Origin: a virus
Length of the DNA stretch: 23,802 nucleotides
Virus record (IMG/VR): IMGVR_UViG_3300038435_000025
Location: 1 to 23,802 of that record
Reading direction: 5' to 3' (one strand)
The translations under genes and the position numbers were made by a program. Positions 3,886 to 22,494 of this stretch are shown here, one piece after another. The stretch's first letter is position 1, and each line of letters starts with the position of its first letter. Under the pieces are notes generated by a model. The model did no database searches, was not told the origin of the DNA, and was given only the letters and a program-made list of their open reading frames with translations.

Positions 3886-6089
3886 GACACCTCCTGCTCA
3901 CGCTGCTGCGCCGCGCCCTGCACTTCCGCGTTGGTCTTGATCTCCAGTGCGCCCAGTGCGGCTTCCTGCTCCAACTCGCGGGCCTTGAGCTGCGCATCCA
4001 GCGCGGCCTTCTCGCGAGCGATCTGCATGTCGAGCGCCGCCTTCTCGCGGGCGATCTGCAGCTCCTGCGCGGCCCTTTCGCGGGCCAACTGCATGTCGAT
4101 CGCGGCCTGCTGGCGCTTGGCCTCGATGTCGGCCATCAACTTCTGCTGGTTCAGTTGCTGATCCGCCTGGAATGCGGCCTGGTCGGCCATGATCTTGGCC
4201 TCGACCTCGGCCATCTTCGGGTCCTTGGGAGGCTCGGCCGGCGGTGTCTGCGCCACCTTCTCGGGCGGCTGGAAGAACATGCCCTGCGTCTTGAAGCCCA
4301 GTTTCTCGGACATCTTGTTGGCCAAGTTGGCGACGTTCTCGGCCGTCACGAACGGGCCGTTGGTCCCGCCCTGCAACGTCACCAGCTTCTCTTGCGCCTG
4401 CGCGATGAACGACAGATGCTCCAGTTCCTGCTGCGTGTTGCCCGTGCCAAGCCCGACATTCACCGTCAGGTCGACATCATCCGGCCACTTCGTCGGGTCG
4501 ACCGTCTTGAACGTGTCGCCCGCCCAGTAGGACTCCGGCCCCGTGGCCGCGCGCTTGATGGCGCGATAGACCAGCCGGTAGACGCGAGCCACGAAGGTCT
4601 CGGCCAGCACGCGGGCAATCAGCTTCTGCCGCTGCGACTTCGCGCTCTCCATCAGGTTCATGCCGCGCGCGGTCTTGTTCAGGCTGTCGGCGTCAAGGCC
4701 CTGGTTTGCGCGATTCGTGCCCGTGCGGTTCTCGGTGACGGTGCTGAAGTACTCTAGCGCAGCCAGCGCCTCGTTCATCACGCTCGGCGGCTGCTGCCAG
4801 TCAATGTGCCCGTCGCCCGGCTTGGCGCCCTGCTTGAACCGGATGGGCGAGCCGGGAACCCAGTCCAGAACGCTGTCGAGGATGACCTGATCACTCACCG
4901 CCGGCCGCGGGCGGTTGGCCACATAGAGATTGTCCAGCAAGCCGCGCGTCAGGACAGACTTGATCTGCTGCACGTCCTTGGTCTGGTCGAACATCGACCG
5001 GCCCACGATGCTGTGCGGCATCAGGATTGGGCTTGCCAGCGCGATCGACGCCGGGCCGTCCCATTCCTCACGCTCGATGATCTTGGCCGCCACGCCGCCC
5101 GCATGGGCGTACAGCACGCGCTCCATGCTCGACGTGCCGTTGCCCCTGAAGTCGGCCTTCACGTAGGCCACGACCAGCCAGAACTTCTTCTCGCTGTCGC
5201 CGTCCTCGTTGCGCTCGGGCTGGATTGCCGAGGCGCTGTCGGTGCGCTGGTTTTCCTCGGGCTCGTTGGGCCGCTCCGAGTTCAACTCGTCAATCTCATC
5301 CTGGCTCACGCCGAGCTTGACGAGATCGGACGCCGAGGTCTCCTGCACGAACCCCAGGTAAGAGCACTTGTCTTGATCGCGGGCGGTCGGGGTGAAGCGG
5401 ATGTCCTCGGGCGCGATGGTGTCGCACACGACGACCTTGCGGCGGCGGGTGATGGTGACGGTGCCGGAGAAGGTGATGGGCGCGGAAAGAGGCGCCGGCA
5501 TTCCCAGCTCGACCGGTCCAGCAAGATCGTTACTTTCGCTCGGCGGCGCGGCGGCATTATCTTGCGCCAGATCCATCTCAAGCTCGGCGCCCTGCTTCTC
5601 AGCCTCGGCCACAATCAGGTCGATGGCGTCCTGCGTCAGGCCCTGCGCCTGCACCGTGCGCGTCTCGTCCCGGTCCTCTAGGTCGACGTTGATCCCGCCC
5701 AAGCGGCTCATCAGCGCGTCTTTGATCGACGCCGACAGCAGCAGGAAGCCCTTGTTGCGCTGCATGAAGCAGTGGCCAACGTAGTCGCTGGCCTCCTGCA
5801 TGTACTGCTCGTCGCCGGGGTGCGTGGGCGTGAACTGGACGATCTGGTCGCCGCCCGCGAATACCTCCATCAGCCCCGGCATGGTCGATTCGATTACGTC
5901 GGCAAACTCGGAGGTGACGACCTTGGACGAGCCCTCCTGCTCGTCACCGTAGGGCTGGCGGTCGTAGTAGTTGTTGGCATCGACGCGGATGGCCGACAGC
6001 GTGCCCGTCTGGTACGAGGTCGCGGCCGACTCCTCCTTGCGGAGAATGTCGATCAGGTCGTCGTCGGAGAGGATGGGCTTGTCAGCCAT
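3882..6089 (-). CDS. Portal protein, 735 aa
   Basis: The protein begins MADKPILSDDDLIDILRKEE and carries typical portal-clip segments such as SKVVTSEFADVIESTMPGLM, the region CDTIAPEDIRFTPTARDQ and RGLLDNLYVANRPRPAVSDQ with GTNRANQGLDADSLNKTARG. These belong to the large portal family of P22-like and related podoviruses (about 700 residues). Twelve copies would form the DNA-entry ring at one capsid vertex. The last 90 or so residues are a long Ala/Glu/Arg coiled coil with 11-residue repeats, reminiscent of a barrel extension. The start at 6089 is chosen because it couples to the upstream gene through TGATG; an upstream in-frame ATG at 6152 would overlap that gene by 64 bases with unlikely sequence. 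Confidence 0.88.
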   Translation of the reverse strand: MADKPILSDDDLIDILRKEESAATSYQTGTLSAIRVDANNYYDRQPYGDEQEGSSKVVTSEFADVIESTMPGLMEVFAGGDQIVQFTPTHPGDEQYMQEASDYVGHCFMQRNKGFLLLSASIKDALMSRLGGINVDLEDRDETRTVQAQGLTQDAIDLIVAEAEKQGAELEMDLAQDNAAAPPSESNDLAGPVELGMPAPLSAPITFSGTVTITRRRKVVVCDTIAPEDIRFTPTARDQDKCSYLGFVQETSASDLVKLGVSQDEIDELNSERPNEPEENQRTDSASAIQPERNEDGDSEKKFWLVVAYVKADFRGNGTSSMERVLYAHAGGVAAKIIEREEWDGPASIALASPILMPHSIVGRSMFDQTKDVQQIKSVLTRGLLDNLYVANRPRPAVSDQVILDSVLDWVPGSPIRFKQGAKPGDGHIDWQQPPSVMNEALAALEYFSTVTENRTGTNRANQGLDADSLNKTARGMNLMESAKSQRQKLIARVLAETFVARVYRLVYRAIKRAATGPESYWAGDTFKTVDPTKWPDDVDLTVNVGLGTGNTQQELEHLSFIAQAQEKLVTLQGGTNGPFVTAENVANLANKMSEKLGFKTQGMFFQPPEKVAQTPPAEPPKDPKMAEVEAKIMADQAAFQADQQLNQQKLMADIEAKRQQAAIDMQLARERAAQELQIAREKAALDMQIAREKAALDAQLKARELEQEAALGALEIKTNAEVQGAAQQREQEVS
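3975..4110 (-). repeat. 33-bp tandem repeats coding for 11-residue coiled-coil repeats
   Basis: About four imperfect 33-base units occur in the 3' part of the portal gene, for example those starting near 4011 and 4044. They encode 11-residue blocks such as AREKAALDMQI and ARERAAQELQI. Eleven-residue periodicity suits a right-handed or nearly straight coiled coil, consistent with a portal barrel. Unit number could vary by slippage. Confidence 0.7.
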
Positions 6090-11399: not shown

Positions 11400-11897
11400 T
11401 CAGAACGGCATGTCGTCGTCATCGATCGGCGGCGGCTCAGGCGGCAGTTCCTTCGGCTTCGCGGGCGCGCGCCACTCGACCAGTGCCTGCCGAATCATCT
11501 TCCGGCCGCGCATCCGCTTGTCGCATTCGGCCTTGAGTTCGGCCCACGTCGGCCAAAATTCCTCGCGGTTTGCCCAGCCATCAACGGCCGCAACCACGAT
11601 GTCCTGCGGGTATGCTGCCAAGCGTTCGGTGTAGGCGCCGGCCATCAACTCCACGTCGACGCCGTCGCGCGCACGGTGCGCCGTCAGCACGCGAAGCTCG
11701 GCCAGCTTGCGGGCGGCCAGTTGCGGGTCGCACGGATCGCAGATGTCCATGACATCCCGCAGGCACGCGGTGACCATCGCTTGATCCGCGTCTTTGTCGA
11801 CGCGAACGCCCGTGATGTTGACGCCCTCGAAGCCGTGGCTGCCGATGATGCTAGTCTCGCCCCAGACGAGCAGCGGCACGAGCGAATGCGCCAGCAT
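11400..11897 (-). CDS. Replication-associated protein, possible helicase loader partner, 165 aa
   Basis: The likely start is the ATG at 11897, which has AGGCGGGG just before it; the frame is open to 12140 but that part overlaps the replication initiator and looks non-coding. From about residue 41, the segment MVTACLRDVMDICDPCD leads to LAAYPQDIVVAAVDGWANREEFWPTWAELKAECDKR, a pattern (YPxDVV..AL..W....FWPTWAEL) seen in small proteins directly downstream of phage replication initiators in alphaproteobacterial phages. It lies in the position of lambda P, so a helicase-loading role is plausible but unproven. The C-terminus is Pro/Asp-rich (KELPPEPPPIDDDDMPF). Confidence 0.6.
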   Translation of the reverse strand: MLAHSLVPLLVWGETSIIGSHGFEGVNITGVRVDKDADQAMVTACLRDVMDICDPCDPQLAARKLAELRVLTAHRARDGVDVELMAGAYTERLAAYPQDIVVAAVDGWANREEFWPTWAELKAECDKRMRGRKMIRQALVEWRAPAKPKELPPEPPPIDDDDMPF

Positions 11898-12552
11898 CCC
11901 CGCCTGTGCTGGCAGCCCGAACGCCGCGAGCGGCTGGCTTTCGGTCAGCGTCGGTGTTGCACCAGATGCAATATCGCCTCTCCCAGCCGGCACGAGTTCG
12001 CTTCTCGTTGCGGCCTCGGCCTTGGGTGAAGTAGTCGACGACGGCCTCTGTGACGTTCGCTGGATCAAGGCCCTTGTCGCTCGCATGGTGTCGCGAAGGC
12101 TCTGAGGGCTGCCAGTCTGCGGGAAGTTTGAATCGCTCATCTTGGGGCTCCTTGCGGGTGCGCTCCGTAGCTTTAGCTACGGTCTGTTCTGTATCTGCTT
12201 CTGTCTCTGACTCTGAGGGCGTTTCAGAAACGTTTCGTTGGCGTTCCCGAAACTGTTTCACCCGGTTGGTTGAAACGTCGGACCTGTACTGCCACTTGTT
12301 CCAATTGTAGGGCTCTATCCCCTTGCGGCCCCGGACGAGAAAGCCGAGGTCGATCAACTCCCGAATGAGAATGCCCGTCTCGTCCTCTGACTTGCGCAGC
12401 AGGAAGGCAGCGTCAGGCAGAAGCGGGAGCCGTCCGTCGTACTCGGATGCCATGCACAAGAACGAGTCCCATGCGCGGTACTGCCGATCGGTGAGGCGCT
12501 GCACCTTCGGGTCATTCAGCTTGGAGGCGTGCGAACGGAACCAGCGAGCCAT
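11851..12552 (-). CDS. Phage replication initiator (O/DnaT-like), 233 aa
   Basis: Residues 1-85 (MARWFRSHASKLNDPKVQRL and DETGILIRELIDLGFLVRGR) look like a winged-helix replisome-organiser domain. Residues 92-138 form a low-complexity acidic linker. Residues 141-200 (FKLPADWQPSEPSRHHASDK, then AVVDYFTQGRGRNEKRTRAGWERRYCIWC) match the DnaT-like C-terminal domain that binds DNA or helicase. The architecture mirrors lambda O: DNA binding, linker, partner domain. The DNA that encodes the linker holds a cluster of palindromic pentamers and an 18-bp inverted repeat, a candidate origin. The start ATG at 12552 directly abuts the upstream stop. The last 33 residues overlap the downstream gene and may not be conserved. 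Confidence 0.78.
   Translation of the reverse strand: MARWFRSHASKLNDPKVQRLTDRQYRAWDSFLCMASEYDGRLPLLPDAAFLLRKSEDETGILIRELIDLGFLVRGRKGIEPYNWNKWQYRSDVSTNRVKQFRERQRNVSETPSESETEADTEQTVAKATERTRKEPQDERFKLPADWQPSEPSRHHASDKGLDPANVTEAVVDYFTQGRGRNEKRTRAGWERRYCIWCNTDADRKPAARGVRAASTGGDAGAFARAAARLGRD
12165..12276. other. Candidate phage replication origin inside the initiator gene
   Basis: Six copies of GAAAC/GTTTC lie between 12221 and 12276, arranged as overlapping inverted repeats (GTTTCAGAAAC 12221-12231, GAAACGTTTC 12227-12236, GAAACTGTTTC 12249-12259). Next to them, 12183-12219 is a purine-biased stretch on the minus strand (for example AGAGTCAGAGACAGAAGCAG), and at 12165-12182 there is a perfect inverted repeat CCGTAGCT-TT-AGCTACGG. 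Iterons, a strand-asymmetric low-complexity stretch and a palindrome within the initiator gene is the layout of lambda ori. Origin function is inferred. Confidence 0.5.
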
Positions 12553-14733: not shown

Positions 14734-15375
14734 TCATCCCCTCACCCGCTCGTGTCGGCGGTCGAGATAAGGAGGGAAGGCGAGATCATCGCACACGACG
14801 CCGCGGGAATTAGAGCCGAGCCCGTCAAGGGTGGTGACGGCAGGGCCTACCGTGCTCGTTGCCACGGGTGCCCCGCCGTCACGCAGGGGGCTTTGGCGGT
14901 CCCCCTGCTCTACTGAATGGATGATTTCCTCTGCGGGCGAATCGTGGTCAGAAGGCCCGTCGTTATTGGCTCCGAGGGTGATTTCCTCTATGATTTCGCC
15001 CGTCTCCGAATCGTGGGGTGGCGTCGCATTTGAGGCCTGTTTTGCGACATGCCGTGCGCGGGCCACGGTTGCCCTGTGAACGCCATTCGCGGCGCACGCC
15101 TCTCCGACCGGGACACCCTCCGCAATCGCTTGCAGCGCCCGCCCCTTGCCACCCAACACGTCCTCGTAGGCCTTCAGCAGTTCGTCGTCGCGCTGACGCT
15201 TCTCGGCGTCCATGCGCTCCCGGACGAACACTTTGCGCAGCGCCTTGCCGTCAACCCCTTTGCCTCGCGCGTCCGTGACGATACCGGCGATCGACTTGGT
15301 TCGCTGGTCGCGGATGTCGGCGTGCGCGTGCATGGCGTCAAGGAAGGTCCGAAGGGCGACGGGGTCTATCTTCAT
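14734..15375 (-). CDS. GapR/DUF2312-like protein with HTH, 213 aa
   Basis: Residues 10-75 (MHAHADIRDQRTKSIAGIVT to FVRERMDAEKRQRDDELLKAYEDVLG) match the coiled-coil layout of the DUF2312/GapR family (GxDxKALRKV + R...DEL..Y...LG), nucleoid proteins of alphaproteobacteria that bind overtwisted DNA. Residues 88-110 (VPVGEACAANGVHRATVARARH) add a helix-turn-helix, giving an unusual combination; the last 90 residues are low-complexity and of unclear conservation. Probably DNA binding. Stop is followed two bases later by the start-repeat copy. ATG at 15375 overlaps the preceding gene (ATGA). Confidence 0.7.
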   Translation of the reverse strand: MKIDPVALRTFLDAMHAHADIRDQRTKSIAGIVTDARGKGVDGKALRKVFVRERMDAEKRQRDDELLKAYEDVLGGKGRALQAIAEGVPVGEACAANGVHRATVARARHVAKQASNATPPHDSETGEIIEEITLGANNDGPSDHDSPAEEIIHSVEQGDRQSPLRDGGAPVATSTVGPAVTTLDGLGSNSRGVVCDDLAFPPYLDRRHERVRG

Positions 15376-16846: not shown

Positions 16847-17056
16847 TCAACCGTCTAACTCCTGCGATATCCATTTCGCGTTCTTGGGCGTGCCGTCCCA
16901 TGTGATCGGCCAGCCCTGCGCGTCGGCAGTCTCGAGGACGAAGGCGATCGGCTCACCAATCCGTGCGGCGACGACCTCGGGATGAATGCCATCGGCAAGC
17001 TCGGCCTCGGCTTCCCGCCAGCCGTACTCTCGGAAACTGCGCGGACGGCCGCTCAT
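16847..17056 (-). CDS. Small HTH-like protein, 69 aa
   Basis: MSGRPRSFREYGWREAEAEL is followed by a helical segment HPEVVAARIGEPIAFVLETA that resembles a helix-turn-helix, then a Trp/Gly end. No specific family. Start at 17056 overlaps the DnaA-like gene stop (ATGA), which excludes the longer frame to 17266. Transcription role unproven. Confidence 0.6.
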   Translation of the reverse strand: MSGRPRSFREYGWREAEAELADGIHPEVVAARIGEPIAFVLETADAQGWPITWDGTPKNAKWISQELDG

Positions 17057-17664
17057 TGCGCGGGCGCCTTCTCGTTCAGGATGGCCTGCGCTCGAGGGTC
17101 CGCAAACCAAGGCCTGAACTCGGGCAAGTCCCCGCGCTCCCTGGCCTTTCTCAGCCCGTGCATCACGGTCGAATGGTCCCGCTTGCCAAAGACGCGACCA
17201 ATCTGAGTTGTAGACAGATCGCGGCGGGCCTTGTGCAGCAGGAACATCGCAAAATGCCGAGGCCACGCCATTCGGCGCACCCGCATGGGAGAGCGGAAGT
17301 CCTCTATCGAGACTCCGGTGATCTCCGCAGCAAGGGCAAGGATCTCGTCTATCGGACGAGGCTCTTCCTCAGTGTAGGCAAGCGCTCTGGCGCGACGGGC
17401 CTTCGCCCTGTCATCAAGGGCGGCGCTGATCATCCGCTCGATGGCGTGAAGAACCGCCGGGCTCTTGAGCTGCGACGCAACTTCGGCCTTCACCTGAAGG
17501 TAGGTCGGGGGCTGCCTGGGGGGATACTTGACGCGCTCGGCTCGCCGCTTGGTCACGATGCCGAGCACGTCGCGTTCGGCCAGTCGATCGTCGACCGACA
17601 TTGCAGGAGGGACTGGCCGGTCCATATCCAAAGGGCCCGCTACTGCGGGCGAACTCTCACTCAT
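17053..17664 (-). CDS. DnaA domain IV protein (phage initiator-like), 203 aa
   Basis: The region of residues 107-175 matches the DnaA C-terminal DNA-binding domain: EILALAAEITGVSIEDFRSP, RRMAWPRHFAMFLLHK and the signature GKRDHSTVMHGLRKA at 160-174, where cellular DnaA has GGRDHSTVxHA for reading the DnaA box. There is no AAA+ (Walker) domain; residues 1-100 are an unrelated charged linker. Such short proteins occur in alphaproteobacterial phages and might compete with or recruit host DnaA. The ATG at 17664 lies on a 35-base start repeat and abuts the preceding stop. Confidence 0.82.
   Translation of the reverse strand: MSESSPAVAGPLDMDRPVPPAMSVDDRLAERDVLGIVTKRRAERVKYPPRQPPTYLQVKAEVASQLKSPAVLHAIERMISAALDDRAKARRARALAYTEEEPRPIDEILALAAEITGVSIEDFRSPMRVRRMAWPRHFAMFLLHKARRDLSTTQIGRVFGKRDHSTVMHGLRKARERGDLPEFRPWFADPRAQAILNEKAPAQ
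17630..17664 (-). repeat. Start-proximal hairpin repeat, copy A (DnaA-like gene)
   Basis: The first 22 bases of the gene match the first 22 of the neighbouring 105-aa gene at 20 positions (minus-strand start ATGAGTGAnAGTTCGCnCGCAG). Just inside is an inverted repeat GCCCGC-TACT-GCGGGC (17635-17650) followed by CTTT. Confidence 0.7.
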
Positions 17665-21942: not shown

Positions 21943-22494
21943 ATGACCGCCAAGCTCTACAAGATAGTCTCGACCGACTTCATGCCCATCCACGGCGGCA
22001 GCGGCCTTTGGTTCGCGCCGACAAAAACGAAGCCCGGCAAGTGGATGCCGAAGATCGCGGAAGTCGAGGCGTGTTCGTCCGGCTATCACCTCATCCCTGC
22101 GAAGGCGATTCTCGACTGGCTACCGCTCAAGCCCGTCGAAGGCTACCTGTGCGAGGCCGAAGGGCGTGGCGCTTCAGACAGCGAAGGCGACAAGACGGCT
22201 TTCGCTCAGGCGCGGTTGCTCAAGGTCGTCGGCGTGCTCGATGAAGTGTCGATGCGACTCGCAGCGGCCGACATGGCCGAGCGTGTGTTGCCGATCTTCT
22301 ACAAGGTCGTCCTCCCTAACGACAATCGCCCCGCTCTCGCGATCCAAGCCGCGCGCGACTACGCGAACGGGAAAATCGGGGACGCTGCCAGGGCCGCTGC
22401 CGGGGACGCTGCCGGGGCCGCTGCCGGGGACGCTAACGTGAAGATCATCATCGCCCAAGCCAAGGCGCGGTTCATCGCTTCCACCCCTGCATAG
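21943..22494 (+). CDS. DUF7666-like phage protein with Ala/Gly/Asp repeat, 183 aa
   Basis: The N-terminal half has GLWFAPTKTKPGKWMPKIAE and SSGYHLIPAKAILDWLPLKP followed by LCEAEGRG, a pattern typical of the DUF7666 phage family (GKW-P, GYHL, YEAEGRG), of unknown role. Near the C-terminus, five 12-base repeats encode AAGDAAGAAAGD. An AGGAAG precedes ATG 21943. Confidence 0.6.
   Translation: MTAKLYKIVSTDFMPIHGGSGLWFAPTKTKPGKWMPKIAEVEACSSGYHLIPAKAILDWLPLKPVEGYLCEAEGRGASDSEGDKTAFAQARLLKVVGVLDEVSMRLAAADMAERVLPIFYKVVLPNDNRPALAIQAARDYANGKIGDAARAAAGDAAGAAAGDANVKIIIAQAKARFIASTPA
22378..22437 (+). repeat. 12-bp minisatellite inside the DUF7666-like gene
   Basis: Five consecutive units of GGGG(A/C)CGCTGCC (one with first base A, the last ending in AAC), arranged as an alternating A/C pair, i.e. 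a 24-base higher unit. Adds or removes four residues per unit by slippage without frameshift. Confidence 0.85.

Follow-up and report, generated by a model that had tools for sequence, protein, structure and literature searches.

A probable replication origin inside a phage initiator gene

To our knowledge, the origins of most temperate phages are unmapped. Lactococcal TP901-1 carries repeats within its replication gene. The origin of phage lambda (ori-lambda) lies in gene O, where palindromic iterons are followed first by an unwinding region with purine asymmetry and then by an inverted repeat (PMC6022878; PMC7466680; PMC5043065). The RepA_N plasmid pSK41 likewise has its origin where rep codes for the linker, with binding boxes inside rep (PMC5703833; PMC7145576). 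An origin of this kind is thus already known from ori-lambda and pSK41.

We analyzed a 23,802-nt stretch of viral DNA (hereafter the window; IMG/VR record IMGVR_UViG_3300038435_000025, positions 1 to 23,802), in which a 112-bp stretch of the initiator gene is very probably the phage's own replication origin (Table 1), as the initial annotation had proposed; homologue conservation, the ori-lambda order of parts and the domains of the initiator all support this reading. As in lambda, the initiator gene carries the putative origin at its middle, where it encodes the linker that joins an N-domain (here the presumed DNA binder) to a C-domain (here the presumed recruiter), and palindromic sites are followed by a strand-asymmetric (purine on one strand) presumed unwinding region and then by an inverted repeat; the relation to ori in lambda O drawn by the initial annotation therefore holds for both the parts and their order. 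The two differ in form: the iterons of lambda, four in number and 18 bp long, are spaced 20-24 bp apart, whereas the window has 10-bp palindromes made of 5-bp half-sites and tiled at 11.5 bp; and the unwinding region of lambda is A-rich, whereas that of the window is a regular CAGANN repeat of 49% GC. With lambda O entered as a single sequence, hhalign detected no homology (0.2% for the whole of O, 2.1% for its N-terminal part). "Lambda-like" is right for the architecture, and shared ancestry draws no support from the lambda O profile comparison.

The RepA_N initiators (pSK41, PLE) share a winged-helix N-domain with the window protein (PDB fold matches include 4pta, 4pql, and 5kbj); they also have a host-specific C-domain and a linker that the ori encodes (PMC5703833; PMC7145576). 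They differ in the form of the iterons, and no CAGA array is described for RepA_N in the literature consulted. Neither the window protein nor its homologues matched RepA_N (PF06970) in Pfam, and no PDB sequence match was obtained; the fold resemblance is weak (Foldseek E 0.03), and the best PDB match of the model (4pta, a RepA_N-type initiator, E 0.028) is to be read as a lead rather than a match. We found no account of the CAGANN array or of the lattice in this initiator family in the open-access literature. Judging from the open literature, four features are new: the tiling of 10-bp palindromes at 11.5 bp, the regular CAGANN array and its fixed junction, the loop preference of the hairpin, and the presence of this array in an unrelated initiator family as well.

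Table 1. Features of the putative origin and its surroundings in the window. Half-site offsets are counted from the first CAGA of the array.
Feature	Position	Strand	Basis or remark
Replication initiator gene, 233 aa	11851-12552	minus	ORF; family matches of homologues
Winged-helix N-domain, aa 3-81, presumed half-site binder	12310-12546	minus	AlphaFold2, Foldseek
Conserved basic helix, aa 96-106 (STxRVKxFRER), overlapping half-sites	12235-12267	minus	conservation, model
DnaT-like C-domain, aa 141-207, presumed helicase/primosome recruiter	11932-12132	minus	weak PF17948, model
Downstream ORF, 246 aa by longest frame, overlapping the initiator end	11400-12140	minus	tblastn relatives
Half-site lattice	12221-12276	minus	shuffle test, family register
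Half-site GTTTC	12276-12272	coding strand	-61
Half-site GAAAC	12259-12255	coding strand	-44
Half-site GTTTC	12253-12249	coding strand	-38
Degenerate half-site GGAAC	12243-12247	minus	-32
Half-site GAAAC	12236-12232	coding strand	-21
Half-site GTTTC	12231-12227	coding strand	-16
Half-site GAAAC	12225-12221	coding strand	-10
Junction GCCCT, 5 nt, last half-site to array	12216-12220	minus	homologue consensus GCCCC
Polar (CAGANN)n array CAGAGTCAGAGACAGAAGCAGATACAGAACAGA, presumed DNA-unwinding element	12183-12215	minus	stability, polarity, reversed scan
Hairpin CCGTAGC-TAAA-GCTACGG (coding strand), 18 nt	12165-12182	minus	DNA fold, homologue enrichment

The initiator protein and its gene neighbor

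The AlphaFold2 model of the window protein shows the layout of an initiator: a winged helix (pLDDT mostly at least 90), a flexible linker that is predicted to be disordered (pLDDT under 50 for aa 112-118 and 120-137), and a C-domain of three helices (aa 151-204). The protein itself falls below the curated cut-offs of every named family in Pfam and PHROG. Among its homologues, 30 of 31 matched phrog_3926 ("replication initiation protein") and 10 of 31 matched PF09681 (Phage_rep_org_N, replisome organizers), the window protein being under threshold for both. Against DnaT (PF17948) it scored 16.1 bits (the curated cut-off is 25), and seven of the 31 homologues matched DnaT at E 0.1 or better; its match to the O-like phrog_678 is weak (18.4 bits) and covers profile positions 106-226, outside the N-terminal part.

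The true start of the ORF downstream of the initiator is probably later than the longest frame gives. Neither Pfam nor PHROG returned a match for it, and tblastn located relatives directly after the initiator in two other loci (L301 and L307); it is possibly a replication partner of the initiator. Elsewhere in the window, a protein with DnaA domain IV (PF08299, E 1.4e-19), too short for a full DnaA, is encoded at 17053-17664 (minus strand); some 17 related loci contain a relative, frequently close to the initiator (e.g., L292, L343, and L227). The protein may bind or mask host DnaA boxes. The product of 14734-15375 (minus strand) has a GapR-like DNA-binding domain (PF10073) and, after it, a helix-turn-helix; together with the genome matches, this suggests an alphaproteobacterial host.

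A phased lattice of half-sites

Six copies of GAAAC/GTTTC lie within 56 bp, as first annotated, together with the overlapping palindromes, the purine-skewed stretch and the perfect 18-bp inverted repeat. Read along the coding strand, the layout is GTTTC...GAAACaGTTTCGGGAACGCCAACGAAACGTTTCTGAAAC-GCCCT-CAGAGTCAGAGACAGAAGCAGATACAGAACAGA-CCGTAGCTAAAGCTACGG (half-sites, polar repeat, hairpin). The palindromes GAAACaGTTTC (centered at 12254) and GAAACGTTTC (centered at 12231.5) are 22.5 bp apart, consistent with the proposed separation of about two helical turns. None of 20,000 synonymous resamplings with the codon usage of the window, which keep the amino acids as the initial annotation had suggested, and none of 20,000 codon permutations within the initiator gene reached six half-sites in 56 bp; moreover, the densest 56-bp cluster among all 5-mers of the 23.8-kb window is that of GAAAC/GTTTC. 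All three codon frames are represented among the six half-sites, which the peptide therefore cannot account for. The clustered palindromic sites come after the part of the gene that codes for the N-domain and before the part that codes for the C-domain, with a strand-asymmetric region of low stability adjacent to them, as in the lambda-type arrangement. The idea that all parts lie in the linker needs amending: the array and the hairpin do encode its disordered part, whereas the half-sites encode aa 93-111, which include the predicted basic helix.

Conservation of the lattice among homologues

The first relatives were collected by protein similarity alone, before any motif search: one Bradyrhizobium phage, one Acinetobacter phage, and four near-identical Pseudomonas phages. 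In each of the six, G(A/T)AAC/GTT(A/T)C is clustered at the same point, and a AGATACAGATACAGA-type (CAGATA) repeat follows. A protein-profile scan then gave 80 viral and eight bacterial loci (all eight alphaproteobacterial); some of the sequences behind the retrieval profile (A3) had been selected by motif, and half-sites encode the final residues of this profile. The search alignment comprised seven sequences, the 28-sequence alignment being too diverse. Scans of viral and genome contigs with the single protein returned no relatives, and a scan of terminase neighbors returned one (L058). Searching known phages with the ori stretch by blastn gave chance-level matches, except for a weak one in the homologous gene of PP9W.

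Conservation was counted in 74 non-redundant genes picked by N-domain similarity. At least three half-sites are present in 68 of them and at least three CAGA in 71, so nearly all keep the palindromes with the same array behind them, the outcome that the initial annotation had named as a check. Half-sites number 6.08 per gene on average; codon permutation lowers this to 2.44, and the N-domain region has 0.82. The corresponding means are 6.82 for CAGA and 0.70 for TCTG. Across the homologues, the half-sites are distributed over the three codon frames as 237/120/93. Half-sites of the same orientation are 11/12, 22/23, 34/35, and 45/46 bp apart (a lattice of 11.5 bp), and those of opposite orientation abut to form 10-bp palindromes. 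The register is fixed relative to the first CAGA: GNAAC starts most commonly at -10, -21, -32/33, -44, -56, and -68, and GTTNC at -16, -28, -39, -51, and -61; the sites of the window (-10, -21, -44 and the degenerate -32; -16, -38, and -61) follow it. One low-scoring locus (L361) has TGACG/CGTCA half-sites and the same array.

The pattern also retrieves the gene family. A search of viral contigs with DNA only (GAAACGTTTC-N(2-32)-CAGATACAGA) returned 101 contigs. For 98 of them, the motif falls in an open reading frame whose product matches the initiator N-domain. Reversing the array in this search cut the yield to five contigs.

Two low-scoring homologues (L335 and L369) that had seemed to be without an origin were rejected as such. 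Their initiator genes, like that of L297, another low scorer, carry an in-frame HNH endonuclease-like domain between the winged helix and downstream origin-like sequence, and their proteins continue after the insertion with VTVTVTPPE-type sequence, so the three are not clean negatives. In the initiator genes of L292-L379, the C-domains after the origin vary widely, as if swapped downstream of the hairpin. We also looked for co-variation between N-domain residues and half-sites; the top columns are those of the STxRVKxF helix, which is itself encoded by half-sites, and the test was set aside as circular.

The array, its junction and the hairpin

The purine-skewed stretch (12215-12183) resolves into a regular polar repeat, in which CAGA recurs at 5-6-nt intervals along the coding strand. 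Among the homologues, the step of the array is 6 nt in 589 of 737 steps. The junction was found in 60 homologues, and in 58 of these precisely 5 nt separate the last half-site from the array. Nearest-neighbor energies make the array the 36 bp of lowest stability in the initiator gene and put it within the least stable 0.5% window-wide; 53 of 68 homologues have their array among the least stable 5% of the gene. This low stability fits an unwinding element despite the GC content.

The hairpin beyond the array has a DNA fold of -7.2 kcal/mol (z -4.1). A perfect stem of at least 7 bp, at most 45 nt after the array, is present in 32% of the homologue genes; stems of at least 7 bp are found in 1.2% of other segments of the same genes, and in 3.5% after codon permutation. 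The stems vary among homologues (for example, CCGTTAGC, CCGTTATC, ATACACTC, and CCAATAGC), shifting with the amino acids while the pairing is kept. Most loops read C(TAAA)G, C(TAAC)G, or C(TGAC)G; since the loop was outside the selection, its conservation is independent support.

No clear turn of GC skew was seen at the site in the window (the record is a fragment), Rfam gave no match, and the window holds one DnaA box, the number expected by chance. Other clustered direct repeats of the window lie elsewhere. Tandem coding repeats of 33 bp occur at 3987-4148, close to the end of a 756-aa ORF whose position resembles that of a portal gene, and 12-bp tandem repeats at 22377-22436, inside a predicted ORF, encode an Ala/Gly-rich repeat.

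Alternative explanations

Palindromic sites of this size are typical operators, and initiators of iteron replicons often regulate themselves. It is conceivable, then, that the half-sites, which the shuffle test shows to be real, form an intragenic operator, at which a repressor or the initiator binds and controls transcription of the replication genes, with replication starting elsewhere. The sites are, however, about 280 bp inside the gene and at a fixed 5-nt distance from a polar array of low stability, which an operator does not need, and we regard this as very improbable. The pattern might instead be a by-product of constraint on the protein, given the low-complexity acidic linker encoded there (TDTDTD, SETPSESE) and a partly conserved peptide (RVKxFR/NVSETPP). 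Against this, the half-sites of the homologues use all three frames and are lost in codon shuffles, their spacing of 11-12 bp is not set by codons, and the hairpin keeps its pairing as its amino acids change; we give this explanation next to no credence.

Another possibility is that the element chiefly serves mosaicism, as conserved DNA at which phages recombine and swap C-terminal domains. The C-domains after the hairpin do differ widely while the N-domain and the sites stay, and chimeric initiators are known, e.g., pPR9 (PMC5703833). But the helical lattice, the polarity and the low stability are all unpredicted by it, and the swapping more plausibly follows from having a conserved origin at a domain border; as the chief role, we consider it highly improbable. 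Weighing against an origin are the sub-threshold family scores of the window protein, the absence of detectable homology to lambda O, the finding of stems of at least 7 bp in only about a third of the homologues, the lack of a clear GC-skew turn at the site, and the partly motif-derived retrieval profile. An origin of replication is nevertheless the reading that we adopt below as very probable.

The same array in presumed initiators of unrelated families

Among the matches listed, the first array scan also met genes without this N-domain, several of them encoding DUF1376 (PF07120) proteins, some with DnaT domains. These DUF1376 genes (L071, L083, L106, and L380-L393) contain intragenic CAACG/CGTTG half-sites, spaced 11, 22/23, 33/34, and 44/45 bp apart, and the same CAGATA array. 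They resemble the window family in the polar array and in the lattice of about 11 bp of inverted half-sites inside the gene, but differ in the N-domain family, in the half-site, and in the gap between inverted half-sites. The DUF1376 sets were picked through the array, so they do not give the share of DUF1376 proteins that have it; and the peptide patterns used in the DUF1376 and Lin1244_N scans partly covered the array. The comparison suggests that DUF1376 is a DNA-binding domain of phage initiators. We tentatively propose, as a possibility somewhat short of even, that the polar (CAGATA)n array is an origin module independent of the initiator, onto which unrelated initiators (the window family, DUF1376, Lin1244_N, and others) each dock their own half-site, with a similar lattice of about 11 bp where measured. 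On this view, what reads the array would be a host factor that they share or a single-strand chemistry in common: every six bases, the complement of the array presents CTG, the triplet at which E. coli-type primase starts.

Proposed mechanism and significance

At the putative origin, initiator N-domains would bind GAAAC/GTTTC as dimers stacked on one helical face, at the 11.5-bp intervals of the lattice, and the bound complex would melt the adjoining (CAGANN)n array, in line with its computed instability. Because the array is strongly one-sided, one strand would be captured, leaving the other free for helicase loading through the DnaT-like C-domain, as lambda and plasmid precedents suggest. 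The hairpin beyond the array might, at a guess, be a primer start, a pause or a fork barrier.

A DNA code of phased half-sites, fixed junction, CAGANN array, and hairpin would allow origins and initiator binding motifs to be called from sequence in a great many environmental phages, and would explain the TDTDTD or SETPSE wording of initiator linkers. How one strand is chosen at origin opening is an open question according to a review (PMC5043065), and these loci would provide a large natural set for asking it. If the array is indeed a module independent of the initiator, arrays could mark origins in raw phage sequence and give a role to DUF1376, a domain of unknown function according to Pfam, which is predicted here to be the DNA-binding domain of an initiator.
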